From Lachnospiraceae bacterium Marseille-Q4251 (GTDB lineage Bacteria; Bacillota; Clostridia; Lachnospirales; Lachnospiraceae): a stretch of 64,000 nt of DNA. The translations under genes and the position numbers were made by a program. Numbering within the stretch: position 1 is the first letter of the stretch; every line of letters starts with the position of its first letter. The stretch is from positions 992,001-1,056,000 of the forward strand of contig JAGTTO010000001.1 of assembly GCA_018223435.1 (NCBI GenBank), written 5' to 3'. Below are positions 43,093-62,109 of the stretch, piece after piece. A model generated the notes under the pieces. That model saw only the letters and a list, made by a program, of their open reading frames with translations, did no database searches and was not told where the DNA came from.

Positions 43093-45504
43093 CTAGTTCC
43101 GTTTTAAAGAAAAATCTTCTTTTTCCAGGGTGAGGTTGGGATTGTAGAAGGGATCTCCCGTTCGGATCAGCTCCGACCAGCGCTCCTCAAAAAGAGCAAT
43201 GGCCTGATGAAATTCCTCCAGTCTTTCCTTTGCCTCCTTCTGAAGCTTCTCCCTGTCCTCATAATGATAAAATTCCGCGTAGGGTTCATAAATCACCCGT
43301 TTTCCCAAAGCACCAACCCTGAGGCAGAAATCCAGATCCCAAAAAGCCAGGCCAAAGTCTTCCGAGAAACCGCCCGCCGCCTCAAAGACACTCCGTTTCA
43401 CCAGCATACAGGCTCCAGTCACTGCGCTGTAACACTGACGGCTTAAGATCCGGCTGTAGACATCTTCCTCCGTCTTTGGAAAGCCGGCAAAGGCAGCTCC
43501 GGCCAGGCCGTGAAGGCCGATGATCACGCCTGCATGGGCGATTCGGTTCTCCCCGTCGTAGAGTCTCGCTCCCACGATGCCGCTCGCTTTTCGCATACAG
43601 GAGCCGAGCATCTCCTCCAGGCTGTCCGCCCCGATGAGCTCCGTATCCGGAGCCAGGAAGAAGAGATAGTTTCCCTTCGCCTGCTTCACGCCCTCATTGA
43701 AAAGAACTGCTTTCGTCGCCTGCTGCCCAAAATGAACCAGCCGAAGTGGCTTTTCCGTCAGCCCCTCTTCTACATTTTCTTCCGCTGTCAGGATCAGATA
43801 CTCATAATTCTGATAGGAAGATTTCCGGTCCAAGGAGGCGATGCAGCGCCGCAGCGCTTCTTTCTCCCCGCGGTACGGAATGAGAATCGATACCAGCGGG
43901 CTCTCCTCCCGGACAAAGCGTGTCCGGAAAAGCCCGGTCTTCTCGCCCTTTCGGACCATGGCCTTTTCGCCGAGACGCTCATAGTGGGCCGTCAAAGCAA
44001 GTCTTGCCTTCTCCCACTCTTCCTCCCCCGCAGAAACCCCTTCCTCCATCCGGATATGGCAGAGAATCCGCGGAATGTGGATGAGTTGCTCTTTCGTTGC
44101 CGCCTCCGTCAATCGAAGCAGCAGGTCATAATCGCAGGCTCCGGAAAAGTCTGCATCCACGCTTCCATATTTTTCAAAAAAGTCCCTCTTTACCAGAAAG
44201 AAGCGGCCGATATAGTTCGTGGTTTCCAGAAGCTCGGGATCGAAATCCGGCTTGAACTCCGGCTCAAAGAACCGGTTGCCATCGAGCGTCATCCGGTCAT
44301 TGTCCGGATAAAACAACACGCCCTCCGGATGCTCATTGATAACTCTCGCAAAGGCAAAGAGCGCATCCGGTGTCGGAAGATCCTCCTGCCGACAAAAGAG
44401 CAGATACTCACCCTTCGCCTCTTTAAGCTCAGAGAGAACGCCCTCAGCGATTCCCGTATGCTCAGGCTGCTCCGTCACATGGAGTCTGGTTTCCTCCTTT
44501 TCAAAGGTATGGAGCACCTCATGAAGGTGAACATCCTCTGTCTCATCTGCCAGACAAACCTCGAAATTCCGGTAAGTCTGGTTCTCCAGATTCCGGAGAA
44601 GCTGCTTTAACTGCCGCTCCTCCATGCTTTTCACCGGAAGGATCAGGCTGAATTTCGGCATATAAGGAAACGCTGTGTTCCGCTGGCGCTCCAGCTCTCC
44701 CGGCCCTGGAATGTGACGCTGAATCCAAACCTGATAATCCACGTTCTCTTCTTCAGAAGCTGGAAAGAGCTCCTTTGCCACCCGGGCCGTCAGGGCCTGC
44801 ATGCCATGGATTCTCCAGTAATCCATGCCCCGCTTCATATATTTTTCCATTTTATGCTTCAGAATCCGGGCAGGATTCAGGTTGACCGGATAAATCTGTT
44901 TTCCTCCGGAACCGGAGAGCACCAGATAAGCCAGCCTTCCGGAAACGCCCTCCGCCTCGATGGTAAAACCGCAGTTTTTCCCGATCTCCGTCTCAAAATA
45001 GAGCATCTGAACATCCAGCCGGTCGCTCCGTCTGATTTTATAGTCAAGTTTCTTTTTCTCCTGATCAAAAAGGCCAATCTTTACCTGCTCCCGGTCTGCA
45101 GCCCAGCCCCGGAGATAGAGATTTCCGTTTTTACCATCCACCAGTTCCTCCTCGAGGTAAAACTGCGGTGTCCGTCTGGCCTCTTTTAACCGCTTCACAG
45201 AAGCTTCATACCAGAGAAGCTTTTCCTCGCCGTTAAGGGCAAAGACACCAAGATGCCGACAGTTTTCCCAGTTTTCCGGAAGAGTGAGAAAGACCGTGAT
45301 CTTCTCTCCTTTTAAAGTTTCCGGCTTTCCAAAGACCTCCAGGGCGCTTTCGTACTCCCAGGCTTCCCTCTGGGCAGGGATCTTTTCCTTATCGAGAAAG
45401 ACCAGCAGCTCATAGCCGGAAGGCCAGTCTCCCTGAAGAATATAGACATTTTCCTCTTTCAGGCTGAACCGGGCCCGCCTGACTTCCCATTCCTGTACTT
45501 TCAT
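43093..45504 (-). CDS. Giant two-domain GT2 protein with N-terminal beta domain; first GT domain degenerate
   Basis: An 803-residue protein. The N-terminal beta-rich region (about 1-260) contains a GW...R.DV...CGF module. GT domain 1 (about 300-500) is poorly conserved: where paralogues have FSDHDDFLEP it has FCRQEDLPTP, losing the Asp ligands, so it is probably inactive. GT domain 2 (about 535-780) has VSILIPYRGEKEALRR, LFFLAPDTELIG, TGACMLVKRSVFEAAGGF and FWDLDFCLRVGALGK; the acceptor-side Asp residues are kept. The ATG at 45504 overlaps the preceding stop by four bases (ATGA). It probably acts with its two neighbours in chain synthesis. Confidence 0.88.
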   Translation of the reverse strand: MKVQEWEVRRARFSLKEENVYILQGDWPSGYELLVFLDKEKIPAQREAWEYESALEVFGKPETLKGEKITVFLTLPENWENCRHLGVFALNGEEKLLWYEASVKRLKEARRTPQFYLEEELVDGKNGNLYLRGWAADREQVKIGLFDQEKKKLDYKIRRSDRLDVQMLYFETEIGKNCGFTIEAEGVSGRLAYLVLSGSGGKQIYPVNLNPARILKHKMEKYMKRGMDYWRIHGMQALTARVAKELFPASEEENVDYQVWIQRHIPGPGELERQRNTAFPYMPKFSLILPVKSMEERQLKQLLRNLENQTYRNFEVCLADETEDVHLHEVLHTFEKEETRLHVTEQPEHTGIAEGVLSELKEAKGEYLLFCRQEDLPTPDALFAFARVINEHPEGVLFYPDNDRMTLDGNRFFEPEFKPDFDPELLETTNYIGRFFLVKRDFFEKYGSVDADFSGACDYDLLLRLTEAATKEQLIHIPRILCHIRMEEGVSAGEEEWEKARLALTAHYERLGEKAMVRKGEKTGLFRTRFVREESPLVSILIPYRGEKEALRRCIASLDRKSSYQNYEYLILTAEENVEEGLTEKPLRLVHFGQQATKAVLFNEGVKQAKGNYLFFLAPDTELIGADSLEEMLGSCMRKASGIVGARLYDGENRIAHAGVIIGLHGLAGAAFAGFPKTEEDVYSRILSRQCYSAVTGACMLVKRSVFEAAGGFSEDFGLAFWDLDFCLRVGALGKRVIYEPYAEFYHYEDREKLQKEAKERLEEFHQAIALFEERWSELIRTGDPFYNPNLTLEKEDFSLKRN

Positions 45505-47999
45505 TTCTCTGCTTCCTCTCCGTGTGGGAACAGCTTCTTCCATTCCACCGGAACTTCCTTCTCCCTGCGAAGCTCGCACTCGCCATTCATCAGAGAGAGA
45601 TTTGGACTATAGTAGGGATCACCCTGATCCAGAAAAGTCTTCCATCGCCGCCGGAACCGGAGAATCTCCTCTTTGAAGCGCTCCTTTTTCTCCGGGGTGT
45701 TCTCATAGCCTCTGGACTTGGACTCATAGTGATAGAGCTCCACGTTCGGGTCCTGGACGATAAGCTTTCCGGCCTCGCGAATCCGAAGGCAGAGATCCAC
45801 ATCGTTTAAGGAAACCACGAAGGACTCGTCAAAACCGCCGATCGCATCAAAGACAGACTTCTTCACCAGCATGCAGGCCGCCGTCACGGCGCTGATATCC
45901 TGCACGGCCTTAAGGCGTCCAAAATAGCCTGCATCCTGACTTGTGTGGAAGTTCTGCACATGACCTGCAAAGTTGGCAATGCCCACCACCACACCGCAGT
46001 GCTGGACCAGACCGTCGGGATAATAGAGTTTCGCTCCCACGGCTCCCGTATCCTCCCGCTGGCAGAAGCCCACCATCTCACGGATCCAGAAGGGACTGAT
46101 AACCTCTGTATCGTTGTTCAGAAGCAGGAGATACTCGCCCTTCGCGTGACGCGCGCCGAAATTGTTGATGGCCGAATAGTTAAAGCCGCCCTGATAATAG
46201 ACCACATGGAGATTTTCATGCTCCATTTTCATTTTTTCATAGTAGGCGAAGGTCTCGGCCTTTTCACTGTTGTTTTCCACAATCACGATCTCAAAATTCG
46301 GATAATCCGTCTTTTCATAGATGGATTTAAGGCAGGTATCGAGGGTCTCCACCTGATCCTTGTTCGGAATCAGAATCGTCACCAGAGGCTCACCTTTGAC
46401 TTTCAGGCGCATTTTATAGAGGATGAAAATGCCTGTGTACTCCACTTCCGCCTCATACCCCAGACGGGCGTAATGCTCAGTGAGGGCCTTTTTGCCGGCC
46501 TCGATGGCATAGGTCTTGCTGTCCTGATTGCCCGCTGTGGAGGTCTCGGAAGCCCTCCAGTGATAGAGAACCTTCGGGATATGGTGAATCCGGTCGGTCT
46601 TCTCGATGCAGCGAAGCAGGAAATCGTAATCCTGGGCTCCGTCACATTCCTTCCGAAGAAGGCCGGCTTCCTCAGCCAGACTTCTCCTCACCATAACCAA
46701 ATGGCAGATATAGTTGATACACCGGAGAAAATCCGGGTTGAAGTCAGGTTTCATCCTGGGTGAGAAATAATGCTCTCCCTTTTCGTCACAGAGATCCTCA
46801 TCCGTATAGATCAGATCCAGGCTCCGGTCTTCGTTCAGTGCCTTTACCATCTCATAGAGGGCATTGGGCTCCAGGAAATCATCATGGTCAGAGAACATCA
46901 GAAACTCGCCGGTGGCCATACGGATGGCAGCATTGGTATTCTCGGAAATACCCCCATTCACCTCCAGGCGTTTCAGGCGAATGCGTGGATCAGAACCGTA
47001 TCTTCTCTCTACGAAAGCCGCGGTCTTTCCGTCGGTGCTTCCGTCCGCCAGACAAAGCTCAAAATTTCCGTAGGTCTGGGCTGTGATCGAATCGATGAGT
47101 GCCTGCAAAAAGGGCTCCGGCGTATTATAGAGCGGCACCACAATACTGATGAGCGGCTGATAAGCAAAAACTTCTTTTCTCTCCCGCTCCAGTTCTTTTT
47201 TGTCCGCCGCATGGAGACGGAACCATTTCTCGTATTCCATCGGGCGATCCTTCAGGGAACGAAGTTTCCCGGCAGTCTTGGAGACGAAGGCCTCCGTGCC
47301 GTGGGCTCTCCAGTAGCTTAAGCCTTTTCTCGCGTACTTTTCCACCTTATTTTTCAGGATCACCGGAGTCTTGAGGCTGATGGGATAGACGTTTTTCCCG
47401 TCTTTTCCGGCAAAGACCAGATAGACGGCATCCCCGGAAAGATCCGAAGCGTCCAGCGTAAAGCCGCAGTCTGCCGCCACCTCGCACTCTTCGTACATGC
47501 CAGCCACATCGGGTCTTGTGCTCCGGCTGAGCTGACAGGGAATTTTCTTTTTCTCCCGGTCAAAAAGTGTGATCTTCACCGGCCCTCTGGATACGGTCCA
47601 GCCGCTCAGATGGATTCTTCCGGCCTTCGCGTCGATGACCTCCTGATCGAGATAAAACTGCGGCGTCTTCTGCTTTCTCTCAAGCTCCCGCACCGGAATC
47701 CGGAACCAGACATTTTTCTGCCCGTTTTCCATGGCATAGACAGCGAGCTTATGGGCCTTCTCCCAGCCTTCCGGAAGCTCCACGGTGATCTTCTTTTTCT
47801 CACCCAGAAGACGGACGGCCTCCTCAGAGCGGCTCAGTTCCTCTTCCTTTTCCCCGCTCACAAGCTTCGCCGAAATCTCATGGCCGTCCAGACGGACCTC
47901 CATTTTTGCCCCGGCGGGCCAGTTTCCTTCTATAATATAGGTATTTTTTTCTCCGAGCAGGAAACGTTCCCGTTCCGCTCCCAGCACCTGTGCCAGCAT
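45501..47999 (-). CDS. Giant two-domain GT2 protein with N-terminal beta domain
   Basis: An 832-residue protein. The N-terminal beta region (about 1-250) has the module IHLSGWTVSRGPVKITLFD / STRPDVAGMY / CGFTLDA. A helical linker and two intact GT2 domains follow. Domain 1 has ISIVVPLYNTPEPFLQAL, FSDHDDFLEP and DGAQDYDFLLRC. Domain 2 has VTILIPNKDQVETLD, LLNNDTEVIS, TAACMLVKKSVFDAIGGF and LNDVDLCLRIREAG. From the first GT domain on it is very similar to the upstream neighbour, while the N-terminal parts differ strongly. The ATG at 47999 lies one base after the previous stop; GGGGAGGAGG is inside the end of that gene. Confidence 0.92.
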   Translation of the reverse strand: MLAQVLGAERERFLLGEKNTYIIEGNWPAGAKMEVRLDGHEISAKLVSGEKEEELSRSEEAVRLLGEKKKITVELPEGWEKAHKLAVYAMENGQKNVWFRIPVRELERKQKTPQFYLDQEVIDAKAGRIHLSGWTVSRGPVKITLFDREKKKIPCQLSRSTRPDVAGMYEECEVAADCGFTLDASDLSGDAVYLVFAGKDGKNVYPISLKTPVILKNKVEKYARKGLSYWRAHGTEAFVSKTAGKLRSLKDRPMEYEKWFRLHAADKKELERERKEVFAYQPLISIVVPLYNTPEPFLQALIDSITAQTYGNFELCLADGSTDGKTAAFVERRYGSDPRIRLKRLEVNGGISENTNAAIRMATGEFLMFSDHDDFLEPNALYEMVKALNEDRSLDLIYTDEDLCDEKGEHYFSPRMKPDFNPDFLRCINYICHLVMVRRSLAEEAGLLRKECDGAQDYDFLLRCIEKTDRIHHIPKVLYHWRASETSTAGNQDSKTYAIEAGKKALTEHYARLGYEAEVEYTGIFILYKMRLKVKGEPLVTILIPNKDQVETLDTCLKSIYEKTDYPNFEIVIVENNSEKAETFAYYEKMKMEHENLHVVYYQGGFNYSAINNFGARHAKGEYLLLLNNDTEVISPFWIREMVGFCQREDTGAVGAKLYYPDGLVQHCGVVVGIANFAGHVQNFHTSQDAGYFGRLKAVQDISAVTAACMLVKKSVFDAIGGFDESFVVSLNDVDLCLRIREAGKLIVQDPNVELYHYESKSRGYENTPEKKERFKEEILRFRRRWKTFLDQGDPYYSPNLSLMNGECELRREKEVPVEWKKLFPHGEEAEK

Positions 48000-48000
48000 C

Positions 48001-50544
48001 TTAAACCTCCTCCCCATTGGGGAACAGTTTTTCCCATTCCTCCGGGACCTCGTGTTCCTTTCTCAGGGTACATTCCCCGTTCAAAAGTGTCAGATTCGGG
48101 CTGTAGTAGGGGTCGCCCTTTTCGAGGAAAGCCTTCCAGCGTTTCCGGAAACGGATCACCTCGCCTTTAAAGCGTGCAAGCTTCTCCGGTGTGTTCTCGT
48201 AGCCTCTGGATTTGGACTCATAGTGGTAGAGCTCCACATTCGGATCCTGGACGATAAGTTTTCCGGTCTCCCGGATTCGAAGACAGAGATCCACATCGTT
48301 GAAGGCCACCTCGAAGCTCTCGTCAAAGCCGCCGATCTCCTCAAAAACCGATCGCTTCACCAGCATGCAAGCCGCCGTTACGGCGCTGATATCCTGCACG
48401 GCCCGAAGCCGTCCAAAGTAACCGTTGTCCCGTCTGGTCTTGAAGTTCTGCACATGGGCCGCATAATTCGCGATGCCAACCACAACGCCGCAGTGCTGTA
48501 CCAATTCATCGGGATAGAAAAGCTTCGCTCCCACGGCTGCCGTGTCCTCCCGCTGACAGAAACCCAGCATCTCGCGGATCCAGAAGGGACTGATGACCTC
48601 CGTGTCATTGTTCAGGAAGAGAATGTACTCGCCCTTCGCACGGCGGACGCCGAAATTGTTGATGGCCGAATAATTGAAGCCGCCATGATATGTCACCACC
48701 TGGAAGTTCTCATGCTCCCGCTTCATCTTCTCATAGAAGGCAAAGGTTTCCTCTTTCTCGCTGTTGTTCTCCACCACAACGATCTCATAGTTGGGATAGT
48801 CGGTCTTCTCATAGATGGAGTCCAGACAGGTAGCCAGAGTCTCTGCCTGATCCTTGTTGGGAATCAGAATCGTCACCAGCGGCTCACTCTTAAGCTTCAG
48901 GCGCATCTTATACATAATGAAGATTCCGGTATAGTCCACCTCCGCCTCATAGCCGAGTCTTGCATAGTGCTCGGTGAGGGCCAGCTTGCCCGCGTCGATC
49001 GCATAGGTCTTACTGTCCTGGTTGCCTGCCGTGGAGGTATCGGAGACCCTCCAGTGATAGAGCACCTTCGGGATATGGTGAACCCGGTCGGTTTTCTCGA
49101 TGCAGCGAAGCAGGAAATCATAGTCCTGGGCCCCGTCACACTGCTTCCGAAGAAGGCCGACTTCTTCTGCAAGACTCTTTCTCACCATAACCAGATGGCA
49201 AATATAGTTAATGCTCCGGAGGAAATCCGGATTGAAATCCGGCTTCATCCGGGGAGCAAAGAACCGCTCTCCCTTCTCATCGCAGAGATCCTCGTCAGTA
49301 TAAATGAGATCCAGATTCCGATCTTCGTTCAGTGCCTTTACCATCTCATAGAGGGCATCGGGTTCCAAGAAATCGTCGTGGTCGGAGAACATCAGAAACT
49401 CGCCGGTGGCCATCCGGATCGCCTCGTTGGTGTTCTCGGAAATTCCAGCATTGACTTTAAGATGCTTCAGCTTAATCCTCGGATCATTGCCATAAAACTT
49501 CTTCACAAAGGCAGAGGGGCCTTTTTTCGTGCTGCCATCCGCCAGACAGAGTTCGAAATTCCGGTAGCTCTGCGACGTGATCGACTGGAGAAGCTTCCTT
49601 AAGAACTCCTGCGGCGTATTGTAGAGAGGAATCACGATGCTGATGAGGGGTTCATAATCAAAGTGCGTGTGTTTCTGCCGATGAAGCTCCAGAGCAGAAG
49701 GCCGCTTCTTTTTGAGCCACATCATATACTGCTCTTCGTCGGTGAAAACATTGTCCTTCACCTGCTCCACAAGACCGGTGATGCCTCTCTTTTTCAGGAT
49801 CGCCCTGTTCTCAGCCAGCTTTCCGCGGCCAATAGCCTTTTTAAGCCTTCCGACCTTTGATACGGAAAAATCAAATTTTTTCATCGAGATCTCGTAAGTT
49901 TTCTCAACGAGAGCATTTTTCATATGGAAGACCAGCTTTTTCCCCTCAAACTCCGATCTCGGATAGGAAAAGGCAAAACCGGCCTCGGTATCTTCCGGCA
50001 CCACGCCTTCCAGCCCCGTATTTTCCGCCACATCAGGCCGAAGGGAACGCTTCAGGGCACCGGGCACCTCATTTCCGTTCTCGTCGGTGATCGAAAGGTC
50101 ATTTTCCCCGGTGAGATCAAGAATCCAGCCCCGGATCGCGATCTTCCGATCCTCCAGGCCGCAAAAGTCCACATAATACTGGATGGAAGCGGCCTTCCAG
50201 CCCTCTTCCAGCTCCGAAGCATTCTTTTCCAGCAGGACTTTTTCCTCGGCTCCGGCTTTCAGAAGGATCTTTAATCCTTTTCCGACCTTTATGAAATTCT
50301 CAAAATCGCCCAGCTTCACACGAAAGCCCAGTTCATCCGCCTGGGCCGCATAAGACGGATAGCGTTTTACCACATCCGGTCGCGGATAAAATTTCACCTC
50401 AGCCTTCACCGGCTCTCCCTTTTCATCCAGAACCAGGATCGCTGCGCTCTCTCCCTCCACAGCCTTCCAGCCCTGTACCGTCAGACTCCCTCCCGGAACC
50501 CACTGGTAACTTTCTGTGTCAACTACTACTTTCTGAATGCTCAT
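48001..50544 (-). CDS. Giant two-domain GT2 protein with duplicated N-terminal beta module
   Basis: An 847-residue protein. The N-terminus carries two copies of the GW...RPDV...GF module (about residues 15-95 and 140-225). A helical linker and two intact GT2 domains follow (ISIVIPLYNTPQEFLRKL, FSDHDDFLEP, DGAQDYDFLLRC; then VTILIPNKDQAETLA, LFLNNDTEVIS, VAFNDVDLCLRIRETG). The GT halves are nearly the same as in the next gene, pointing to recent duplication or gene conversion. Similar multi-domain GTs build rhamnan-type backbones. AAAGGAG stands five bases before the ATG. It follows the kinase gene by 20 bases. Confidence 0.92.
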   Translation of the reverse strand: MSIQKVVVDTESYQWVPGGSLTVQGWKAVEGESAAILVLDEKGEPVKAEVKFYPRPDVVKRYPSYAAQADELGFRVKLGDFENFIKVGKGLKILLKAGAEEKVLLEKNASELEEGWKAASIQYYVDFCGLEDRKIAIRGWILDLTGENDLSITDENGNEVPGALKRSLRPDVAENTGLEGVVPEDTEAGFAFSYPRSEFEGKKLVFHMKNALVEKTYEISMKKFDFSVSKVGRLKKAIGRGKLAENRAILKKRGITGLVEQVKDNVFTDEEQYMMWLKKKRPSALELHRQKHTHFDYEPLISIVIPLYNTPQEFLRKLLQSITSQSYRNFELCLADGSTKKGPSAFVKKFYGNDPRIKLKHLKVNAGISENTNEAIRMATGEFLMFSDHDDFLEPDALYEMVKALNEDRNLDLIYTDEDLCDEKGERFFAPRMKPDFNPDFLRSINYICHLVMVRKSLAEEVGLLRKQCDGAQDYDFLLRCIEKTDRVHHIPKVLYHWRVSDTSTAGNQDSKTYAIDAGKLALTEHYARLGYEAEVDYTGIFIMYKMRLKLKSEPLVTILIPNKDQAETLATCLDSIYEKTDYPNYEIVVVENNSEKEETFAFYEKMKREHENFQVVTYHGGFNYSAINNFGVRRAKGEYILFLNNDTEVISPFWIREMLGFCQREDTAAVGAKLFYPDELVQHCGVVVGIANYAAHVQNFKTRRDNGYFGRLRAVQDISAVTAACMLVKRSVFEEIGGFDESFEVAFNDVDLCLRIRETGKLIVQDPNVELYHYESKSRGYENTPEKLARFKGEVIRFRKRWKAFLEKGDPYYSPNLTLLNGECTLRKEHEVPEEWEKLFPNGEEV

Positions 50545-50564: not shown

Positions 50565-51857
50565 TTATTTCTGATGCTGTTCTCTGTAGCCTCTGTATTT
50601 CTCATATGCTTTCCATACCTTCGTATGTTTCATCTCACTGATGGTATTCTCTGCCTGGCGAAGCTGCTCCCGAAGCTTCCTAATCTCTTCTCCCCGGGAT
50701 GCGGAAAGCTCCGCCAGCTGACCAAGCTCTTTCTTCGCTCCTGTCTCCAGCGGATAAACCGCCAGCTCCACCCGAAGCTTTTTCGCTCCTTCAGGAATCT
50801 CCCTCAGATAAAAGTTCGGATCATCCTCCCCGAAAAAGAGCCAGTTTCCCATCGAACTTCCCTTCTCCAGCGTCACAGGCGCCTGACCGGTCTGTCCGTC
50901 AAAAGCAAGCTTCCGGATCTCCGTCATGCAGGCACGGTAGCCCGGATCCAGCCGAAGACTCTTCACGCCCTCTGGCAGAAGAATCTCTTTTTCGATCTCC
51001 CAGCCCTCTCTGTGACTCATCTGGAAGAGTCTTGAATTTTCCTCGAAAAAACCATCTCCGCAGTCAAAATAAACCTGTAGCATCTCCTGTGGAAAGTAGT
51101 CCGTCACCCGAAGAGAACCGGCGCTGATATCCTGATAGAGATCCCGGATGGGCGTATGCCGACGGCAGACATATTTCTGGAAGGAAGTCTCCATGGCCTC
51201 GTAAGCCTTGCACTCCTCACTGGTGATCCCCATTTTTCCATAGAGATCAAAGGATTTGAACTCTTCGCCCCGGTCTGCATGGTCCGTAAAGTAAAAAATG
51301 ATCCGGTAGAGGATAAAATTCACCGGAACCGTGAAATCAAAGCTCCACTCATAGTCGATGGCGGTCCATTTTTCTCCGGTGAGAACGATATTTCCGCAGA
51401 CCAGATCGATATTGGAAAAAGGCGCGCAGACCGTTTCTTTCGGAAGCTCGTGTTCCCCGAACACCTCCCGGAAACCCTCTGTGATCTCAAAGCTCGCTCC
51501 TTTGTGCAGGGACTTTACAAATTCGAGATAGTCCAGAAGCTCCTCCGCGCAAGGCTCGATGCCCTGCTCCTTTTCCACAGATAAGAGATGTTCCTCCAGC
51601 GTCTCCCCCGTGAGATACTCCAGCTCCACGCCGCCGGGAATCAGGCTGCACACGTTATAGGAGAGTTTCGTTCCCTCCAAAGCTCTGGAAAACGCCTCGT
51701 ACCAGTGGTAGATGGCCTCCACATGAAGTTTCCCTTCTGGGAATTCCGGAAGTTTCCGCACATAGCGGACGCCCTCCTCATCCTCCAGAATGTCCGTGCG
51801 GATGGCAAGACAGTGATTTCTCTCATTGGAATATTTGGAATAAATAATCTTCTTCAT
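50565..51857 (-). CDS. Aminoglycoside-phosphotransferase-like sugar kinase with C-terminal coiled coil (WbdD-kinase-like)
   Basis: A 430-residue protein. Residues about 1-270 have a protein-kinase/APH-like fold. The catalytic loop NIDLVCGN matches HxDxxxxN with Asn for His and keeps the Asp and Asn. The metal-binding motif is TAIDYEWSF in place of DFG. Residues 280-370 are beta-rich. The last 60 residues, LGQLAELSASRGEEIRKLRE and onward to about 420, form a likely coiled coil. Its ATG overlaps the methyltransferase stop by four bases. The order methyltransferase, kinase, coiled coil equals that of WbdD, the enzyme that caps E. coli O8/O9 O-antigen and sets its length. Function in capping is inferred. 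Confidence 0.7.
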   Translation of the reverse strand: MKKIIYSKYSNERNHCLAIRTDILEDEEGVRYVRKLPEFPEGKLHVEAIYHWYEAFSRALEGTKLSYNVCSLIPGGVELEYLTGETLEEHLLSVEKEQGIEPCAEELLDYLEFVKSLHKGASFEITEGFREVFGEHELPKETVCAPFSNIDLVCGNIVLTGEKWTAIDYEWSFDFTVPVNFILYRIIFYFTDHADRGEEFKSFDLYGKMGITSEECKAYEAMETSFQKYVCRRHTPIRDLYQDISAGSLRVTDYFPQEMLQVYFDCGDGFFEENSRLFQMSHREGWEIEKEILLPEGVKSLRLDPGYRACMTEIRKLAFDGQTGQAPVTLEKGSSMGNWLFFGEDDPNFYLREIPEGAKKLRVELAVYPLETGAKKELGQLAELSASRGEEIRKLREQLRQAENTISEMKHTKVWKAYEKYRGYREQHQK

Positions 51858-52783
51858 GACTCCTCCTTTCCCAGCAGCACCAGAAAGGAATTGGAAAACT
51901 CCGGAAACAGCCCGTTGTCGATGATGGTATCGAAGACCTTTGACTCATCGAAAAGCAGAAGCCGTCTCTGGTCGTAGTTGCAGATATTTTCTTTGAGGTC
52001 CCCTTTTCTCGGAAGGTAAGCGTCCGAGTAGATGGAGAAGGGGAATTTGTAATCAGGGTAGGGATAGTAGAACTCCAGCTGGAAATTTCCTGCCTCATGG
52101 AAGAGCCGGATCAGCTCCGTTCTCGAAAAGGTGTGGACATCCTTCGTGTTGGGATAGCCTTCGAGTCCCTCGAAGAAACGGCCCACATGGTCCTCGGCGC
52201 AGCCCGCCCAGTATTTTAAGCCCAGACGGTTCTCGATGGCAATGACGATCTTTCCGCCCGGAGCCAGATGGCGCTCCACCAGCTGAAGCATATAACTAAA
52301 GGGATTCTCGTTGTCCGTATAGCAGGCCGCATACTCGAAGACGCCGATGAAGGTGATGTAATCGTACTTCTCCGCCAGCGTCTTTTCCACCTCCTCAAAG
52401 GCTCCCAGAAGGATCGTCACATTATCGCAATCCTCATTCCGGTAAGCATTGACGAGGCTTCTCTGTCTGGAAAGCTCCACACAGGTTACGCTTCCGGCTT
52501 TCTTTGCCAACGCTCCGGTGATGGCTCCGCAGCCGGCTCCGATCTCCAGAACTTTATCCTCTTTTGTGATGGGCAGCCAGCTCACTATATTCCCACGGAT
52601 ATGGGAAAAATGGTACATCACCGGCCAGCTTTTTCTCTCAGCGATGACCTGATTGTACTCTTCAGGCGTATGACAGCTTTTCGCAATCTCCAGAAGTTCC
52701 TCTTCCACAGGACCATCACTGTACAGGTCGCTGCCTGAATAACAGGTGTCATCCAGAGTGATTTTTCCAATTTTCTCCCTCAT
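51854..52783 (-). CDS. Class I SAM-dependent methyltransferase (WbdD-methyltransferase-like)
   Basis: A 309-residue Rossmann methyltransferase. The SAM-binding motif is VLEIGAGCGAITGALA (about residues 78-93), with VTCVELSRQRS as motif II, YDYITFIGVFEYA as motif IV and LAPGGKIVIAIENRLGLKYW afterwards. A 75-residue N-terminal extension precedes the fold. Lying directly after the Wzt gene (14 bases) and overlapping the kinase gene, it probably methylates a sugar or a kinase-added phosphate at the growing polysaccharide end. Methylation of another substrate cannot be excluded from sequence. Confidence 0.82.
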   Translation of the reverse strand: MREKIGKITLDDTCYSGSDLYSDGPVEEELLEIAKSCHTPEEYNQVIAERKSWPVMYHFSHIRGNIVSWLPITKEDKVLEIGAGCGAITGALAKKAGSVTCVELSRQRSLVNAYRNEDCDNVTILLGAFEEVEKTLAEKYDYITFIGVFEYAACYTDNENPFSYMLQLVERHLAPGGKIVIAIENRLGLKYWAGCAEDHVGRFFEGLEGYPNTKDVHTFSRTELIRLFHEAGNFQLEFYYPYPDYKFPFSIYSDAYLPRKGDLKENICNYDQRRLLLFDESKVFDTIIDNGLFPEFSNSFLVLLGKEES

Positions 52784-52797
52784 AAAATTTCCCTTTC

Positions 52798-54054
52798 TTA
52801 TTTTGTTACCTGCACCTCAATCCTGGAGTTCATATCGTAGAAGCCCACGGTGTCCTTCATGGATACCACGTTGACGCTGCAGGCGTCATAGAGACGGTGG
52901 AACACATGGAAATCTCCCTCCATATAGCCGGTACAGCCAAAGGAAATGAGATAGCTTCCGCCCTGAAGATCCATCTTCTGGGTGAAAGAAACCTCCACCA
53001 CCGTATCTTTTTTTGCCGGAACCTCGATCTTCTCGTACATCGTGTTGGTGCCTGTGATCTCCGTTCCTTTCATATCCTTGATCGTGAAAGCCACGATGGG
53101 CTCCTGAAGGTCTTTATGGAACTCAATCTTCATCTTGAAGGTACAGGTGGTTCCCTTCTCGATCGTGTTGGTCAGTTTTCCATCCTTATCCACGACGGCA
53201 AAATCGACAATCTCCGCCAGTTTTTCTCCGTACTCCAGGAGGTTGGGGTTCACCTGGATCTTGCTTCTCCACTCGCCTTCTCTGGCGATGTGTTTCTCCG
53301 GCTCCCCTTCCTGATGGACCAGGAAACGTTTGTAGAGGTCAACCATGGCTTTGGGGCTCCCCTCGTCCACCTTGACGCCTTGATTCAGGAGCACGACGCG
53401 GTCGCAGTATTTGCTGATGCTGCTGAGGTCATGGCTCACAAAGAGGATCGTCTTGCCCTGTTTTTTGAACTCCTCGAACTTATGATAACATTTTGCCTGG
53501 AAAAAGACGTCTCCCACGGAAAGTGCCTCGTCTACAATCAGGATCTCCGGGTCGATATTGATCGCCACAGCGAAGGCCAGACGGACAAACATACCGCTGG
53601 AGTAGGTTTTCACGGGCTGGTTGACGAAATCGCCGATATCTGCGAATCGCAAAATTTCCGGAAGACGCTTGTTAATTTCCTCCTCCGTGAAGCCCAGCAT
53701 CGTACCGTTGAGGTAGACGTTTTCCACGCCAGTATACTCCATGTTGAAACCGGCTCCCAGCTCCAGAAGAGCGGAGATTCTGCCGTTCACCGTCACATTT
53801 CCCATCGTAGGCTGCAGCACGCCGGTGATGATCTTCAGCACCGTAGATTTTCCGGAACCGTTGGTTCCGATGATGCCCACGGTCTCTCCCCGGTGTACAT
53901 CAAAGCTCACCTGATCCAGGGCTTTGTGTTCCCGGTATTTCTTTTCCTTTGTAAACCCAAGGGCCTCTTTTAAGCGGTCTGAGGGTTTGTTGTATAACCG
54001 GTAGATCTTACTCACATTATCTACGCGGATCGCAATGTTCTTATCCTTATCCAA
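52798..54054 (-). CDS. Polysaccharide ABC transporter ATPase with C-terminal domain (Wzt-like)
   Basis: A 418-residue protein. The nucleotide-binding domain (about 1-245) has Walker A GTNGSGKST (63-71), the ABC signature SSGMFVRLAF, Walker B ILIVDEALS and LFVSHDLSS. The remaining 170 residues form a beta-rich C-terminal domain, as in Wzt proteins that recognise the modified polymer end before export. ATPases without this domain have about 250 residues. Translation starts at TTG (54054), supported by AGGAGG eight bases upstream; the nearest ATG is out of frame. It pairs with the permease gene 21 bases upstream. Confidence 0.93.
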   Translation of the reverse strand: MDKDKNIAIRVDNVSKIYRLYNKPSDRLKEALGFTKEKKYREHKALDQVSFDVHRGETVGIIGTNGSGKSTVLKIITGVLQPTMGNVTVNGRISALLELGAGFNMEYTGVENVYLNGTMLGFTEEEINKRLPEILRFADIGDFVNQPVKTYSSGMFVRLAFAVAINIDPEILIVDEALSVGDVFFQAKCYHKFEEFKKQGKTILFVSHDLSSISKYCDRVVLLNQGVKVDEGSPKAMVDLYKRFLVHQEGEPEKHIAREGEWRSKIQVNPNLLEYGEKLAEIVDFAVVDKDGKLTNTIEKGTTCTFKMKIEFHKDLQEPIVAFTIKDMKGTEITGTNTMYEKIEVPAKKDTVVEVSFTQKMDLQGGSYLISFGCTGYMEGDFHVFHRLYDACSVNVVSMKDTVGFYDMNSRIEVQVTK

Positions 54055-54075
54055 AAATCCATCCTCCTGCTCTTC

Positions 54076-54900
54076 TTACAGTACATCAGCAAAGTGGCCC
54101 TTCAGCCTGTTAAATACCCAGGTGCTGAAGACATAGCACACAATCAGAAACGCCCAGAAATACACGGTCAGAAGCTTATCCTCCCAGAACCAGCGCTGCT
54201 CGATAAAGGCATTCCGGTAGCCGTGAACGATGTAGTAGAACGGGTTCAGCTTCAGAATCCGCATGACCGTGCTTCCCCAGGAATAACCGTTCAGGAAGGA
54301 AAGGTCCCACATAACCGGAGTCATCCAGACGCCGATCTGCAGAAGAATGGAGACGATCTGTCCCATATCCCGGAAAAAGACGATGACAGAGCTCGTCGTA
54401 TAGACGATGGCCAGGATCAGCAGGAAGAGGCAGATCATGTAGTAAAGGATCTCCAGATAATAAATATTCGGATAGTAGCCGTAGCAGGCAAACAGGATCA
54501 TGGCGAAAGCCACGAAAAACAGATGGATAACCAGAGCTGAAAGAAGCTTTACCACCGGCAGGACACTGATGTCAAAGACTACTTTTTTTACCAGATAACT
54601 GTATTCCAGAAACGAGTTGGTTCCCGTGATCAGTCCCTCCTGGAAATACATCCATGGAACAATACCGGACACCAGGTAAAGGACGAAAGGCGTCCCGTCT
54701 CCCGAGGCAGCCCCTCCCCGCATGGCGATGCCAAACACGAAATAATAGACCAGAATCGTCACGATGGGCTGGATGAAAGCCCAGATCGTTCCGAAATAGG
54801 AGCCGGCAAAACGGCTCTTCAGGTCATTCTTTGCCATTTTTTTTACAAGCCGCCGGTTTCGATACAGGTCAGACGGCAAAGTACACAGATCTTTCAGCAT
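54076..54900 (-). CDS. Polysaccharide ABC transporter permease (Wzm-like)
   Basis: A 274-residue ABC-2-type permease with six predicted helices. Family motifs are KNDLKSRFAGSYFGTIWAFIQP at the N-terminus, LVSGIVPWMYFQEGL, FFRDMGQIVSILLQIGVWMTPVMWD and LNPFYYIVHGYRNAFI. It carries undecaprenyl-linked polymer across the membrane together with the Wzt-like ATPase. In Gram-positive bacteria the same class (RgpC, TagG) exports rhamnans and teichoic acids. GGAGA precedes the ATG; rfbC lies ten bases upstream. Confidence 0.95.
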   Translation of the reverse strand: MLKDLCTLPSDLYRNRRLVKKMAKNDLKSRFAGSYFGTIWAFIQPIVTILVYYFVFGIAMRGGAASGDGTPFVLYLVSGIVPWMYFQEGLITGTNSFLEYSYLVKKVVFDISVLPVVKLLSALVIHLFFVAFAMILFACYGYYPNIYYLEILYYMICLFLLILAIVYTTSSVIVFFRDMGQIVSILLQIGVWMTPVMWDLSFLNGYSWGSTVMRILKLNPFYYIVHGYRNAFIEQRWFWEDKLLTVYFWAFLIVCYVFSTWVFNRLKGHFADVL

Positions 54901-54909
54901 ATGATTCTC

Positions 54910-55470
54910 CTACTTATTTTTCTCCTGATATTCCTTGAAAGAACCCCAGTGCTGGTCTTTCTCGGAAATGGTCAGCTCCATGCCTTCCGGAATAGGCCAC
55001 TGTACGTTGATGTCCGGATCTCTCCAGGAAAGTCCGCCCTCATCGTTGGGATGGTAGAAATCGGTACATTTGTAAGCAAACTCCGCATGGTCGGAAAGCA
55101 CCAGGAAACCGTGGGCGAAATTCTTCGGGATGAAGAACTGCTTCTTGTTCTCAGCAGAAAGCAGCACACCGAACCATTTTCCATAGGTCTTGGAGCCTTT
55201 TCTCAAATCGACTGCCACATCATAAACCTCGCCGGCCACCACGCGCACCAGCTTGTCCTGGGGATAGTTAATCTGGAAATGCAGGCCGCGGAGCACGCCT
55301 TTTTTGGATGCAGACTGGTTGTCCTGCACAAACTCCATGTCGATGCCTGCTTCCTTGTAATCGTTATAATTATAGGTTTCCATAAAGTAGCCTCTCTCAT
55401 CCCCGAAAACGGTGGGGGTAATGACCTTCAGGCCCTCGATTTCACAAGTTTCCACTGTAATTTTTCCCAT
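54910..55470 (-). CDS. rfbC: dTDP-4-dehydrorhamnose 3,5-epimerase
   Basis: A 186-residue cupin-fold RmlC of normal length. GVLRGLHFQINYPQDKLVRV contains the catalytic His, EVYDVAVDLRKGSKTYGKW is conserved, and FIPKNFAHGFLVLSD carries the second conserved His; YKCTDFYHPNDEGGLSWRDP follows. It converts dTDP-4-keto-6-deoxyglucose to dTDP-4-keto-L-rhamnose. An AGGAGG site precedes the ATG. It lies 92 bases after rfbA with no terminator. Confidence 0.97.
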   Translation of the reverse strand: MGKITVETCEIEGLKVITPTVFGDERGYFMETYNYNDYKEAGIDMEFVQDNQSASKKGVLRGLHFQINYPQDKLVRVVAGEVYDVAVDLRKGSKTYGKWFGVLLSAENKKQFFIPKNFAHGFLVLSDHAEFAYKCTDFYHPNDEGGLSWRDPDINVQWPIPEGMELTISEKDQHWGSFKEYQEKNK

Positions 55471-55562
55471 TTTTTTGTCCTCCTGACATTTTTACTTTTT
55501 ATCCTTTAAACAATGAAAACCAGAAGGCCCCAGTCTCCTGGTTCCTCCTGGTCACTGAAGGC

Positions 55563-56432
55563 TTAAAGTCCCTCTGCTATCTCTACCAGATACTGGCCGT
55601 AAGCGGTCTTCATCAGCGGTTTTGCAAGCTCAAGAAGCTGTTCCTTATTGATAAAGCCTCTGCGATAGGCAATTTCCTCGATACAGGAGATGTAAAGACC
55701 CTGACGCTTCTGGAAGGCTGCCACAAAGTCAGCCGCGTCCAGAAGAGAGTCATGGTTTCCCGTATCCAGCCATGCAAAACCTCTTCCCAGAGTCTCTACA
55801 TGAAGTTTGCCCCTTCTGAGATATTCATTATTCACGCTGGTGATCTCAATCTCGCCTCTTGCGGAGGGTTTTACATTTTTCGCGATCTCTACCACATCAT
55901 TGTCATAGAAATAAAGGCCCGGCACCGCATAGTTAGACTTCGGATGCTCCGGTTTCTCCTCGATGGAAAGGGCCTTGCCGTTCTCGTCAAATTCTACTAC
56001 ACCGTACTCTCTCGGGTCTCTCACATAGTAACCGAAGATGGTCGCGCCATCTTCTCTGGTTGCCACTCTCTGAAGCACATTGGAAAAGCTCTGTCCGTAG
56101 AAAATGTTGTCGCCCAGGATCAGCGCCACGTTGTCGTCTCCGATGAATTTTTCACCGATGATGAAAGCATCTGCCAGTCCTCTGGGACTCTCCTGAACTG
56201 CATAGGAAATATCGATTCCCAGCTGTTTTCCGTCGCCTAAGAGATCCTCGAATACCGGAAGGTCTCTCGGGGTGGAAATAATCAGGATTTCTCTGATGCC
56301 GGAAAGCATCAGAATGGAAAGCGGATAGTAGATCATCGGTTTGTCATAAACCGGCATGATCTGTTTGGAAATGGCCTTGGTCAGCGGATACAGACGGGTT
56401 CCGGAGCCTCCGGCTAAGATAATACCTTTCAT
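55563..56432 (-). CDS. rfbA: Glucose-1-phosphate thymidylyltransferase
   Basis: A 289-residue RmlA of normal length making dTDP-glucose. The nucleotide-binding signature [11 protein letters not shown] is at residues 8-18, followed by [27 protein letters not shown] with the metal Asp, and [24 protein letters not shown] precedes the ATG. It is the second gene of the locus, 15 bases after rfbB, supplying the precursor for both rhamnose and Fuc4N. Confidence 0.98.
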
Positions 56433-56447
56433 AAGTAATTACTCCTT

Positions 56448-57530
56448 TTATCTATGGCTGTACATGTCCTCATAGTATTTCTGATAATCGCCGCTGGTGA
56501 TGCGATCCATCCAGTCCTCATGCTCGAAATACCATTTGATCGTCTTCCTGATGCCTTCTGCGAAGCAGGTCTCGGGATACCAGCCCACCTCAGCCTTGAT
56601 CTTGTCCGGTGCGATGGCATAACGGCGGTCATGGCCCTTGCGGTCTTCTACATAAGTGATCAGATCCTCGCTCACAAGCGCTTTTCTCGGATCTCCCTCC
56701 GGAAGCATCTCCTGCAGAGTATCCAGAATGATGTGGATGATCTCGATGTTCTGTTTCTCATTGTGTCCGCCGATGTTGTAGGTCTCGAAGAGACGGCCTT
56801 TCTCCTGTACCATATCGATTCCCTTGGCGTGATCCTCTACATAAAGCCAGTCGCGGACATTCTTGCCGTCGCCGTATACCGGCAGTTTCTTGCCGTGCAG
56901 GGCATTGTTGATGATAAGCGGGATCAGCTTCTCCGGAAACTGATAAGGGCCGTAGTTGTTGCTGCAGTTGGTGATATTGGCCGGGAAATGGTAGGTATCC
57001 ATATAAGCCTTCACCAGCATGTCAGAAGAAGCCTTACTTGCGGAGTAGGGGCTGTGGGGCGCATAGGGAGTGGTTTCGTAGAAATAGCCGCCGTCCTCGG
57101 TGAGGGAACCGTATACCTCATCAGTGGAAACGTGAAGGAATTTCTTACCCTCCTTGAAGGTGCCATCCGGCAACTCCCAGGCATTCTTTGCAGCGTTCAG
57201 CATGTTCAGTGTTCCGAGAACATTTGTCTTAACAAAAACATCCGGATTCTTGATGCTGCGGTCCACATGGCTCTCAGCTGCGAAATGAACAACGCGGTCT
57301 ATATCGTTCTCCTCGAAGATCTGGATCATCTTCTCTCCGTCACAGATATCAGCTTTGATAAAGGTATAATTCTCTTTATCTTCGATATCCTTCAGATTCT
57401 CCAGATTGCCCGCGTAGGTCAGGCAGTCCACGTTGATGATGCGGATAGTGTCGCCGTATTTCTTGAACATATAATGAATATAGTTAGACCCGATAAAGCC
57501 GGCGCCACCGGTAACCAGATAAGTTTTCAT
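56448..57530 (-). CDS. rfbB: dTDP-glucose 4,6-dehydratase
   Basis: A 360-residue short-chain dehydrogenase-type RmlB. The NAD motif is GGAGFIGSNYIHYM (8-21); HFAAESHVDRSI, HVSTDEVYGSL with the catalytic Asp-Glu pair, and YSASKASSDML with the Tyr/Lys pair follow, then NNYGPYQFPEKLIP. Its product dTDP-4-keto-6-deoxyglucose is the branch point for RmlC/RmlD and for the WecE-like aminotransferase in the same operon. It is first in the locus behind a good promoter; AGGAGG precedes the ATG. Confidence 0.98.
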   Translation of the reverse strand: MKTYLVTGGAGFIGSNYIHYMFKKYGDTIRIINVDCLTYAGNLENLKDIEDKENYTFIKADICDGEKMIQIFEENDIDRVVHFAAESHVDRSIKNPDVFVKTNVLGTLNMLNAAKNAWELPDGTFKEGKKFLHVSTDEVYGSLTEDGGYFYETTPYAPHSPYSASKASSDMLVKAYMDTYHFPANITNCSNNYGPYQFPEKLIPLIINNALHGKKLPVYGDGKNVRDWLYVEDHAKGIDMVQEKGRLFETYNIGGHNEKQNIEIIHIILDTLQEMLPEGDPRKALVSEDLITYVEDRKGHDRRYAIAPDKIKAEVGWYPETCFAEGIRKTIKWYFEHEDWMDRITSGDYQKYYEDMYSHR

Positions 57531-60021: not shown

Positions 60022-62109
60022 ATGAGAAAACCATCTCTCTATTTACGAAATGTTGTCAGCGCGCTGATTCTGGCCGGTGCCTGCCTTATGGCAGGCACTT
60101 CCGTTTCTGCCGCTGATATTCCTTCCGCTCTGCCATCGGCGGGGCTTCCCTCTCTTCCGGACTACGGATCGACTGACACCTACTCCCGTTCCTACGGGAC
60201 GCTTCCGGAAAGCTATGACTCCCGAAAACTCGGACTGATCACTCCCGTCCGCAACCAGAATCCCTGGGGAACCTGCTGGGCCTTCGGCGCTCTCAGTGCC
60301 GGAGAAGCCAGCCTCATCAAAAAAGGACTGGCAGACACCTCTGTGGACCTCTCCGAGCTTCACCTGTCTTACTTTTTCTTCAATTCCCCCACAGATCCTC
60401 TGGGAAATACAGCAAAAGACACGGTAAGTCTCCCCACCACCGCTTCCAACTACCTGGAATCCGGTGGAAACAACCTCTTCACGATGTTTGAGCTGGCCAG
60501 CTGGACCGGAGCCGCCCCAGAAGCTCTGGCTCCCTACGAAAATTCTTCCAGCATTCCCTCCTTAAACAGCGCCCTGGCCTATGAGGACACCGCTCATCTT
60601 CAGAATGCCCGCTTTGTGAGCACAGCGGATCTTGACAGTGTGAAAAAGCTCATCATGGAATACGGCGCTGTCTCCTCCGCTTTTTACTACGACAGCCGTT
60701 ATCTCTCTGACAGCAGCGGTTATTATTACCCCAGAGTTGCCTCCTACAACAACCACATCGTCACTCTGGTGGGCTGGGATGACAACTATGCCGCCTACCA
60801 CTTCAAAGAAGGCAGCCGTCCTTCCTCTCCCGGGGCCTGGATTGCAAAAAACAGCCACGGTACCAGCTTCGGCGACGGCGGATATTTCTATATCTCCTAC
60901 GAGGACAAGACGCTGAATAACCGGAAAGACGCCCTCTCCTATGCCTTTGATCTGGAGAAAGCCGACAACTATGACCACAACTATCAGTACGATGGTTCCT
61001 TCGGCGCTTCCACCCTGGATCTGGACAATGGAGAATGTCTCGCCAACATTTTCACCGTCAGCGGAAATCCCGGTGGCAGAGAACAGCTCAAGGCCGTCTC
61101 TTTCGCTCTTTATACTCCGGACGTCTACTACAGCATCCAGGTGTACAAAAATCCGGACCCAGGCGAACCGGAAAGCGGAACCGCCATGTTTTCTTCCAAG
61201 CAATATGGCAGCACCACCTACAGCGGCTATTACACGATTCCACTGAAAACCCAGCCTGTCTTCGAGGAAGGAGATACTTTCTCCGTAGTCCTCACCTTCC
61301 GTGGAAAAAATCAGACCAGCGTGGACACCTTTGTGGACTATACCTCCAACACAGCCGGCATCCAGTTCCATTCCTCCGCCACCGCAGGGCAGAGCTTTTA
61401 TAAAAGCAGCGGAACCTGGAAAGATATGACCAGCATCGGCAATAAGAGCGCTGTGGCCCGTATCAAGGCCTTTACTAAAAACACAGCCGCTGCCGTCACT
61501 CCCGGAACTGGTTCTGCTTCCAGCTCAACGGTCAGCCTTTCCACACCAAGAATCAAAAGTTACCTCTGCCATGGTTATAACAGCGTTTCTCTTTCCTGGA
61601 CAGCAGTCAGCGGAGCCACCGGCTATAAGGTCTACCGGAGCACCTCCCTCAATGGCACTTATACACGGATTCTCACCACGAAACGCACCAGTTTTACCGA
61701 TACCAAGAGAATAACCGGTGTCAACTATTACTACCGGATTCGGGCCTATAAAACCTCTGGAAGTACCACCATCCACAGCGGCTACTCCAGCACCGTCCGC
61801 GTCCGTGTGATCCCGGCAACACCTTCCATTCAGAATGTGCGCCTGGCAAACGGCAATCGAAATCTCCTACTGACCTGGAATGCCGTCAGCGGAGCTACCG
61901 GCTACTCCATTTACCGCAGCACCAGCAAAAACGGTACTTACCAGAGAATCAAAATTATCACCTCCGGCCGTACCCTCTCCTATCTCACCAACCTTCCCAA
62001 AGAGGGAACCTCATACTACTATAAAGTACAGGCTTACCGCCTCGTCAACAGCAAATACGTCTGCGGTTATTCCTCTTCCCCGAAAGGCTATTACCGGAAG
62101 AAAAACTAA
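60022..62109 (+). CDS. Secreted papain-like (C1 family) cysteine protease with fibronectin III repeats
   Basis: A 695-residue exported protein. The signal peptide is 1-30 (GACLMAGTSVSAADIP). The C1 peptidase domain (about 60-300) has the oxyanion Gln79, catalytic Cys85 in WGTCWAFG, His245 in NNHIVTLVGWDDN and Asn277 in AKNSHG, so it should be active. A beta-rich lectin-like domain follows (about 310-485). Two fibronectin type III domains (about 505-595 and 600-690) show SWTAVSGATGYKVYRST and TWNAVSGATGYSIYRST. No anchor motif is present. It may process surface proteins. It starts 21 bases after the nucleotidyltransferase gene. Confidence 0.88.
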   Translation: MRKPSLYLRNVVSALILAGACLMAGTSVSAADIPSALPSAGLPSLPDYGSTDTYSRSYGTLPESYDSRKLGLITPVRNQNPWGTCWAFGALSAGEASLIKKGLADTSVDLSELHLSYFFFNSPTDPLGNTAKDTVSLPTTASNYLESGGNNLFTMFELASWTGAAPEALAPYENSSSIPSLNSALAYEDTAHLQNARFVSTADLDSVKKLIMEYGAVSSAFYYDSRYLSDSSGYYYPRVASYNNHIVTLVGWDDNYAAYHFKEGSRPSSPGAWIAKNSHGTSFGDGGYFYISYEDKTLNNRKDALSYAFDLEKADNYDHNYQYDGSFGASTLDLDNGECLANIFTVSGNPGGREQLKAVSFALYTPDVYYSIQVYKNPDPGEPESGTAMFSSKQYGSTTYSGYYTIPLKTQPVFEEGDTFSVVLTFRGKNQTSVDTFVDYTSNTAGIQFHSSATAGQSFYKSSGTWKDMTSIGNKSAVARIKAFTKNTAAAVTPGTGSASSSTVSLSTPRIKSYLCHGYNSVSLSWTAVSGATGYKVYRSTSLNGTYTRILTTKRTSFTDTKRITGVNYYYRIRAYKTSGSTTIHSGYSSTVRVRVIPATPSIQNVRLANGNRNLLLTWNAVSGATGYSIYRSTSKNGTYQRIKIITSGRTLSYLTNLPKEGTSYYYKVQAYRLVNSKYVCGYSSSPKGYYRKKN

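Follow-up and report, generated by a model that had tools for sequence, protein, structure and literature searches.

A putative split methyltransferase-kinase terminator of the Klebsiella O7 ORF6 type beside a cap-reading Wzm/Wzt exporter in a Lachnospiraceae bacterium

WbdD of Escherichia coli O9/O9a, which comprises a methyltransferase (MT), a kinase and a coil and is found beside Wzm and a Wzt_C-bearing Wzt, caps the non-reducing end of the polysaccharide and thereby licenses its export (PMC3482155). The cap is methyl in E. coli O8 and methylphosphate in O9 (PMC3482155). Another terminator, ORF6 of Klebsiella pneumoniae O7 with GenBank accession MN173773.1, is described as a succession of MT, kinase, immunoglobulin (Ig)-like domain, coil and two rhamnosyltransferase modules; its kinase is unannotated, resembles the amicoumacin kinase AmiN and has D441 as the catalytic residue (PMC11231755). 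In vitro, the terminal rhamnose was phosphorylated and methylated by ORF6-O7, while the D441A substitution blocked the kinase and left the polymer unexported (PMC11231755). The O7-type terminator is already in print for proteobacteria; the paper names alphaproteobacterial, gammaproteobacterial and cyanobacterial orthologues as well as homologues from an archaeon (PMC11231755). Here we analyze a locus in a 64,000-nucleotide stretch (the window) of Lachnospiraceae bacterium Marseille-Q4251 (contig JAGTTO010000001.1, positions 992,001 to 1,056,000), where genes of a Wzm/Wzt exporter are followed by an MT gene and by a gene for a predicted kinase with a beta-sandwich and a coil.

On the minus strand of the window the reading order is RmlB, RmlA, RmlC, Wzm, Wzt, MT, a 430-residue protein and three proteins with tandem family 2 glycosyltransferase (GT2) domains. 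The exporter and the putative terminator have the following features.

54076-54900, minus strand: Wzm permease (ABC2_membrane, 2e-11)
52798-54054, minus strand: Wzt, an ATP-binding cassette (ABC) ATPase with a C-terminal cap-binding domain (418 residues, TTG start)
52831-53235, minus strand: Wzt_C domain (PF14524), Wzt residues 274-408 (Pfam E 4.2e-42; pocket residues S371, G373 and R387)
51854-52783, minus strand: MT, a class I S-adenosylmethionine (SAM)-dependent methyltransferase of 309 residues (Methyltransf_12, 6e-10), putative first half of the split terminator
52526-52546, minus strand: SAM motif EIGAGCG of the MT, residues 80-86
50565-51857, minus strand: kinase, beta-sandwich and coiled-coil protein of 430 residues (model pLDDT 89.1, pTM 0.59), putative second half
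51123-51857, minus strand: APH-type kinase domain by predicted fold, residues 1-245
51390-51413, minus strand: catalytic loop NIDLVCGN from residue 149 (D151, N156), aligning to FIDAVPQN of the Pseudomonas family described below
51345-51359, minus strand: IDYEW motif (D168, the metal-binding Asp by analogy), aligning to LIDVEW of the Pseudomonas family
50751-51083, minus strand: beta-sandwich domain, residues 259-369 (domain model pLDDT 94, pTM 0.88)
50628-50744, minus strand: short predicted coiled coil, residues 372-410, a long helix in the model
50571-50621, minus strand: C-terminal helix after the coil, from the model, with low hydrophobic moment

The original prediction, made from the letters of the window, had noted that the MT and kinase-like genes overlap by 4 bases, that the latter encodes the motifs NIDLVCGN and TAIDYEWSF and that both follow Wzm and Wzt; coordinates and residues confirm all of this, with TAIDYEWSF beginning at residue 165. 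It had also taken the C-terminal domain of Wzt for one of the cap-recognizing type. This assignment holds as well, in view of the Wzt_C match and of the best PDB sequence matches of Wzt, 8dku (E 1e-81) and 7k2t (E 2.5e-81), which cover residues 8-400.

No significant match to the 430-residue protein was found in Pfam, NCBIfam or PDB sequence searches. Its identity as a kinase rests on the predicted fold, sequence searches being uninformative. The model has an APH-type fold, so that the kinase fold the original prediction called for is present in it, and by predicted fold and alignment both the catalytic D..N loop and the second Asp are intact. WbdD was not among the 50 matches listed in either structure search, a result that carries no weight. 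The beta-sandwich occupies the same position as the Ig-like domain, also called carbohydrate-binding module-like, that is reported for ORF6-O7; a PDB search with this domain alone gave no confident match. The tail expected to be a coiled coil is coil-like: its heptad pattern in the best register was equalled in 2 of 20000 shuffles of residues 376-412. The last helix was considered as a membrane anchor, which its hydrophobic moment does not support, the values calculated for stretches of it reaching no more than 0.19.

Relatives were collected by scanning genome contigs. Of the 532 found, the 80 most similar to the window, and hence the nearest ones only, were kept as loci for comparison. The catalytic motif was found by pattern scan in 77 of them. 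Since the 78 rows of the kinase alignment were picked for D[YF]EW, the constancy of D168, E170 and W171 in it is due to selection; two kinases outside this alignment (L022 and L057) read IDHEW and IDCEW and keep the D..N loop.

To place the family, profiles of the window proteins and their relatives were compared with two reference profiles. One, of the O7-like type, starts from a 1457-residue protein encoded on a Pseudomonas asturiensis plasmid (L083:8935-13308) and holds 120 listed of its 1290 relatives. The gene of this protein comes immediately behind an ABC permease and ATPase gene, and its layout is that of ORF6-O7. This protein has all six published SAM-site residues of ORF6-O7 (Y28, Y66, G91, G93, E112 and Y158; PMC11231755) at identical numbers and an Asp at 443, near D441; each SAM-site position is kept in 86-109 of the 120 listed relatives. 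The other profile, of the WbdD family, has 121 rows. The O7-like profile was matched by the MT family over 280 columns (E 6.3e-62), by the whole kinase protein (E 2e-13), by the kinase domain (E 7e-9) and by the beta domain (E 2.4e-5, prob 75.7), compared with 0.044 at best for column-reversed profile controls. Against the WbdD family, neither the kinase domain (E 0.23) nor the beta domain (E 0.43) gave a match; the MT family matched over 79 columns of the general SAM region (E 2e-6), and the whole kinase protein over 70 weak columns around the catalytic loop (E 1.2e-4, prob 54.5). From these profile matches we conclude that the terminator, as judged from sequence, is of the O7 ORF6 and not of the WbdD type; its way of working would resemble both. 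On its profile E value the kinase domain is not assigned to the WbdD-type, eukaryote-like kinases, the weak columns of the whole protein notwithstanding. Thus the original prediction, which had read the locus as a split WbdD, was right about the kind of protein, a capping terminator, and wrong about its family.

With Klebsiella O7 ORF6 the window locus shares the MT, an AmiN/APH-like kinase that sequence searches do not connect with known kinases, an Ig-like beta domain, a coil and a glycan that in the window is predicted to contain rhamnose and to be exported by an ABC transporter. It differs in that ORF6-O7 is one chain of MT, kinase and two glycosyltransferases (GTs), with numbering to 1414 (PMC11231755), whereas the window has separate genes, a short coil and a locus of Gram-positive type. 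WbdD resembles the window system in combining MT, kinase and coil beside Wzm/Wzt_C and in the kinds of activity predicted, but its MT is fused to the kinase, the kinase is eukaryote-like, the beta domain is unmatched in it and its C-terminal region comprises residues 460-708 (PMC3482155). WsaE of the Geobacillus S-layer glycan is likewise Gram-positive, is linked to Wzm/Wzt and has a rhamnan-capping MT; this MT adds 2-O-methyl directly, and one MT and two GT domains are named for the protein (PMC2943079).

The order Wzm, Wzt, MT, kinase on one strand is complete in 71 of the 80 loci, which is more than chance. Six of the remaining nine begin at or near a contig end (L005, L010, L020, L035, L039 and L043), and L046 has a cut Wzt_C only, before the kinase. 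MT and kinase are fused in 29 loci, kinase and GT in 12 (a possible 13th, L074, has a weak GT match), and all three form one chain in 3. On a tree of 78 kinases, in which many deep branches are weak, the MT-kinase fusion state needs a minimum of 8 changes and the kinase-GT state, with three contig-cut rows excluded, a minimum of 7; these counts hold with all rows labelled and become 5 each with unlabelled rows dropped. The 4-base overlap is the commonest MT-kinase spacing in split loci (19 of 51, starts being pattern-based). The GT parts of the fusions and the GT2 proteins of the window are relatives: the one encoded at 48001-50544 shares 49% identity with the GT part in the L020 fusion protein and 39% with that in the Pseudomonas protein. 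Recurrent fusion, spacing and GT relatedness together indicate that MT, kinase and GT very probably function as one complex.

Co-occurrence with capped export was assessed in 200 genomes of the family of G002, the Lachnospiraceae genome (Blautia schinkii) of locus L018, with thresholds of E 1e-10 or lower for the kinase-protein profile and 1e-8 or lower for Wzt_C. The kinase-protein profile matched in 104 genomes and Wzt_C in 116; both were present in 101 and neither in 81. In 100 of the 101 with both, the two matches lay at most 5 kb apart on the same contig, and in 92 at most 2 kb apart. These counts need a correction: in G061, G089 and G121 the profile matched over the beta domain and tail only, the proteins consisting of MT, beta domain and coil, in G121 with a GT as well, and having no kinase. 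With these three removed, 101 genomes have the kinase and 98 of them Wzt_C too; the two share a contig and are no more than 5 kb apart in 97 genomes, and no more than 2 kb apart in 89. Applied to the table before this correction, Fisher's test gives 4e-36, but the genomes are related, and adjacency is the stronger point. The claim that the pair is rarely found away from Wzt systems agrees with these numbers. At E 1e-20, a phylum-wide sample of 398 genomes has the kinase in 6, so the system is lineage-bound.

Several single loci deserve mention in their own right. In L013:6369-11290, thiamine-synthesis-like genes stand upstream of the MT-kinase gene in the place of Wzm/Wzt, by assembly chimera or rearrangement. 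The proteins at L099:7472-9427 and L101:6211-7902 are MT-kinases without a cap-reading Wzt; one adjoins a Wzt without C-domain, and the other, with no Wzt in 15 kb, apparently has no beta domain and coil. L082:1222-10887, on a conjugative plasmid of Citrobacter braakii, carries rml genes, genes for an ABC permease and ATPase, and also an MT-kinase-like gene whose second kinase motif is FEREW, with an IS630 transposase between.

A further line of evidence comes from the Wzt pocket. In Aquifex aeolicus Wzt, the methyl group of the 3-O-methyl cap lies among L300, T346, A348 and W362, and the W362L substitution led to an essentially complete loss of lipopolysaccharide binding (PMC9445017). Positions 348 and 362 are Ala and Trp in Aquifex and E. 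coli O8 Wzt, whose caps are methyl, and in O60, while Gly and Arg occupy them in the window (G373/R387) and in E. coli O9, O99, Pseudomonas and Citrobacter. In sequence alignment the pocket S371/G373/R387 is as in the Wzt of E. coli O9, which likewise has a Wzt_C domain and serves chains with a methylphosphate cap. Kinase-linked Wzt proteins, alignable in 73 of the 80 loci, have Gly in 73/73 and Arg in 72/73, the lone gap being a broken frame in L004. By contrast, Wzt_C domains from genomes without a kinase hit have Tyr or Phe at 362 in 16 of 18 cases. Among the 15 genomes with Wzt_C and no kinase-profile match this is true of 13, and in the two that have Arg, wzt is immediately followed by a diverged MT-kinase gene. 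The three genomes with kinase-free MT and beta-domain proteins have Ala and Tyr in the pocket, as does one of the 15 (G067), in which the gene before wzt matches the beta domain alone. That kinase and pocket Arg come and go together in one family argues, independently of the kinase itself, for a phosphate-bearing cap, and G373 and R387 point to a window Wzt set up for such a cap.

Sister terminators that combine an MT with the same beta domain and a coil, and have no kinase, lie at L105:2273-3643, L106:1980-3371 and L107:649-4155, all adjoining a Wzt_C with Ala and Tyr; the one in L107 also carries a GT. This kinase-free type looks like a methyl-only counterpart of the kinase system.

Taken together, the two proteins quite likely act as a split terminator of the O7 ORF6 type that phosphorylates and then methylates the chain end and so licenses export by Wzm/Wzt. 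We infer the activity, the order of the reactions and methylphosphate as the cap. The neighbouring GT2 proteins would build the chain on a lipid carrier in the cytoplasm; the APH-type kinase would phosphorylate the non-reducing terminal sugar, whereupon elongation would stop, and the MT would methylate the phosphate after the kinase step. Wzt_C would bind the capped end, so that Wzm/Wzt would export capped chains only. The probable task of the beta-sandwich is to hold on to the end of the glycan, and that of the coil and last helix is to keep kinase, MT and polymerase in one assembly; the LytR-CpsA-Psr (LCP) protein encoded in the locus probably attaches the exported polymer to the wall. A two-protein terminator coupled to a cap-reading Wzt, as originally proposed, is supported by this evidence; it stands in a rhamnose-sugar locus with an LCP gene.

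Some observations weigh against this reading. The link to O7 was made through the Pseudomonas homologue and published ORF6-O7 residue numbers, and residue 441 of the Pseudomonas protein is Phe, with only 1 of 5 published GT residue numbers in agreement. The pocket code is a strong pattern and not proof, since its rows share descent and the loop of kinase-less Wzt is hard to align (three read Ser at 362, then Tyr, in two alignments); for O99 and O60 the comparison is one of residues. The kinase occurs without Wzt_C in 3 of 101 genomes: G072 has an intact MT-kinase and a Wzt without C-domain, G166 an intact MT-kinase and no Wzt in the 15 kb examined, and G019 a degenerate kinase copy. Two of the 80 loci (L013 and L022) carry the MT-kinase without adjoining Wzm/Wzt. 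Finally, the SAM motif of the MT is decayed in 4 of the 80 (L046, L059, L062 and L068) and altered in L080, and the MT of L070 was not found by pattern; these cases suggest that methyl is not always part of the cap.

The last point bears on whether a terminal phosphate alone could be the cap, with the MT acting elsewhere or dispensable. All four decayed-MT loci keep the kinase motif, the three with a Wzt row (L059, L062 and L068) keep the pocket as well, and a pattern search of the four loci found no second SAM-motif protein; the window MT, on the other hand, retains its SAM motif and the family's Y/Y/Y signature, and for the window a phosphate-only cap is unlikely. L093 and L094 resemble the decayed-MT loci, and such proteins may cap with phosphate alone. 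We regard it as quite unlikely that the pair decorates chains internally with methylphosphate, or phosphorylates another carbohydrate or a lipid, and issues no export ticket. APH-fold kinases do act on many small molecules, and the three kinase genomes without Wzt_C would fit; but where kinase and Wzt_C co-occur they are at most 5 kb apart in 97 of 98 cases, the pocket Arg accompanies the kinase, and the kinase-free MT and beta-domain proteins adjoin an Arg-less Wzt.

The remaining alternatives concern the coil, which the original prediction had taken for a length ruler. If the locus encoded a WbdD-type terminator and ruler split in two, with a eukaryote-like kinase and a length-setting coil, the like gene order and kinds of activity would be explained, as would the weak whole-protein profile match and the junction ISEMKHTKVWKAYEKYR at the coil end, which resembles WbdD 584-605 (hhalign against the single WbdD sequence, prob 16). 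This is highly improbable given the lack of a kinase- or beta-domain match to WbdD, an MT likeness confined to the general SAM region, and the short coil. From residue 371 on the window protein has 60 residues, compared with WbdD 460-708, and this tail measures 24-105 residues in 62 relatives (65 rows without GT fusion, minus the contig-cut L011, L025 and L040). It has 37 residues with little coil in L004, L005 and L006 and 24 in the decayed-MT clade. Because the tail is short, variable and, in L004-L006, nearly devoid of coil, we read it mainly as a dock or oligomerization element. The ruler is thus doubtful, although the tail is coil-like as predicted. Within the preferred reading of an O7-type split terminator, the chances are about balanced that the proteins cap only, with the coil serving for docking or oligomerization and chain length resulting from how fast elongation runs relative to capping. 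The short tails speak for this, as do the GT fusions, which already keep the enzymes together; ruler-like, long heptad-rich tails in L071 (91 residues), L079 (105 residues), P0016 and P0021 speak against it, and a ruler role is possible in such long-coil lineages.

The genes around the terminator are the following.

54910-57530, minus strand: RmlC, RmlA and RmlB-like genes (dTDP-rhamnose synthesis)
63111-63998: RmlD
48001-50544, minus strand: tandem GT2 protein adjoining the kinase gene; it corresponds to the GT part of the kinase-GT fusions in other loci
45501-48017 and 43093-45579, minus strand: two more tandem GT2 proteins
35254-36654, minus strand: Bac_transf initiating sugar-phosphate transferase
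33839-35233, minus strand: LCP protein

The LCP gene suggests linkage of the polymer to the wall, and the polymer would be wall-linked and contain rhamnose; a wall rhamnan, as first proposed, is plausible. At 39518-43070 a WecE-type dTDP-4-amino-4,6-dideoxygalactose transaminase adjoins a YfhO-type membrane protein, and the transaminase suggests an amino-dideoxy sugar in the polymer. The GTG start listed for 43093-45579 overlaps the preceding gene by 79 bases, so that the real start is probably further in. A papain-family protease with a lectin-like domain is encoded near the glycan locus, at 60022-62109.

Among the papers listed in literature searches, judged by their titles and the opening of their abstracts, none describes an O7-type terminator in Gram-positive bacteria, and the word Gram-positive is absent from the main text of PMC11231755. 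General statements that Gram-positive glycans may be capped are in print, and for Lactococcus rhamnan one paper proposes that a terminal sugar is put on by an enzyme yet to be found; the parts of the gut-polysaccharide review PMC12413058 that were consulted hold nothing bearing on chain termination. What is new is that the terminator is split and extends to Gram-positive bacteria, together with its kinase-free sister type and the proposed code of the pocket.

For the family as a whole, we see an even chance that about half of the Lachnospiraceae license export by a phosphate-based O7-type cap, with the parts split or joined variously, read by an Arg/Gly pocket code, with kinase-free terminators paired with an Arg-less pocket and with some lineages using phosphate alone. 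How the chains of Gram-positive wall polysaccharides are stopped and licensed for export is largely an open question, for which this enzyme pair, from bacteria common in the gut, gives a concrete candidate. Nature offers split, fused and kinase-free versions for comparison, and the proposed pocket code could sort Wzt genes into readers of phosphate caps and readers of methyl caps.

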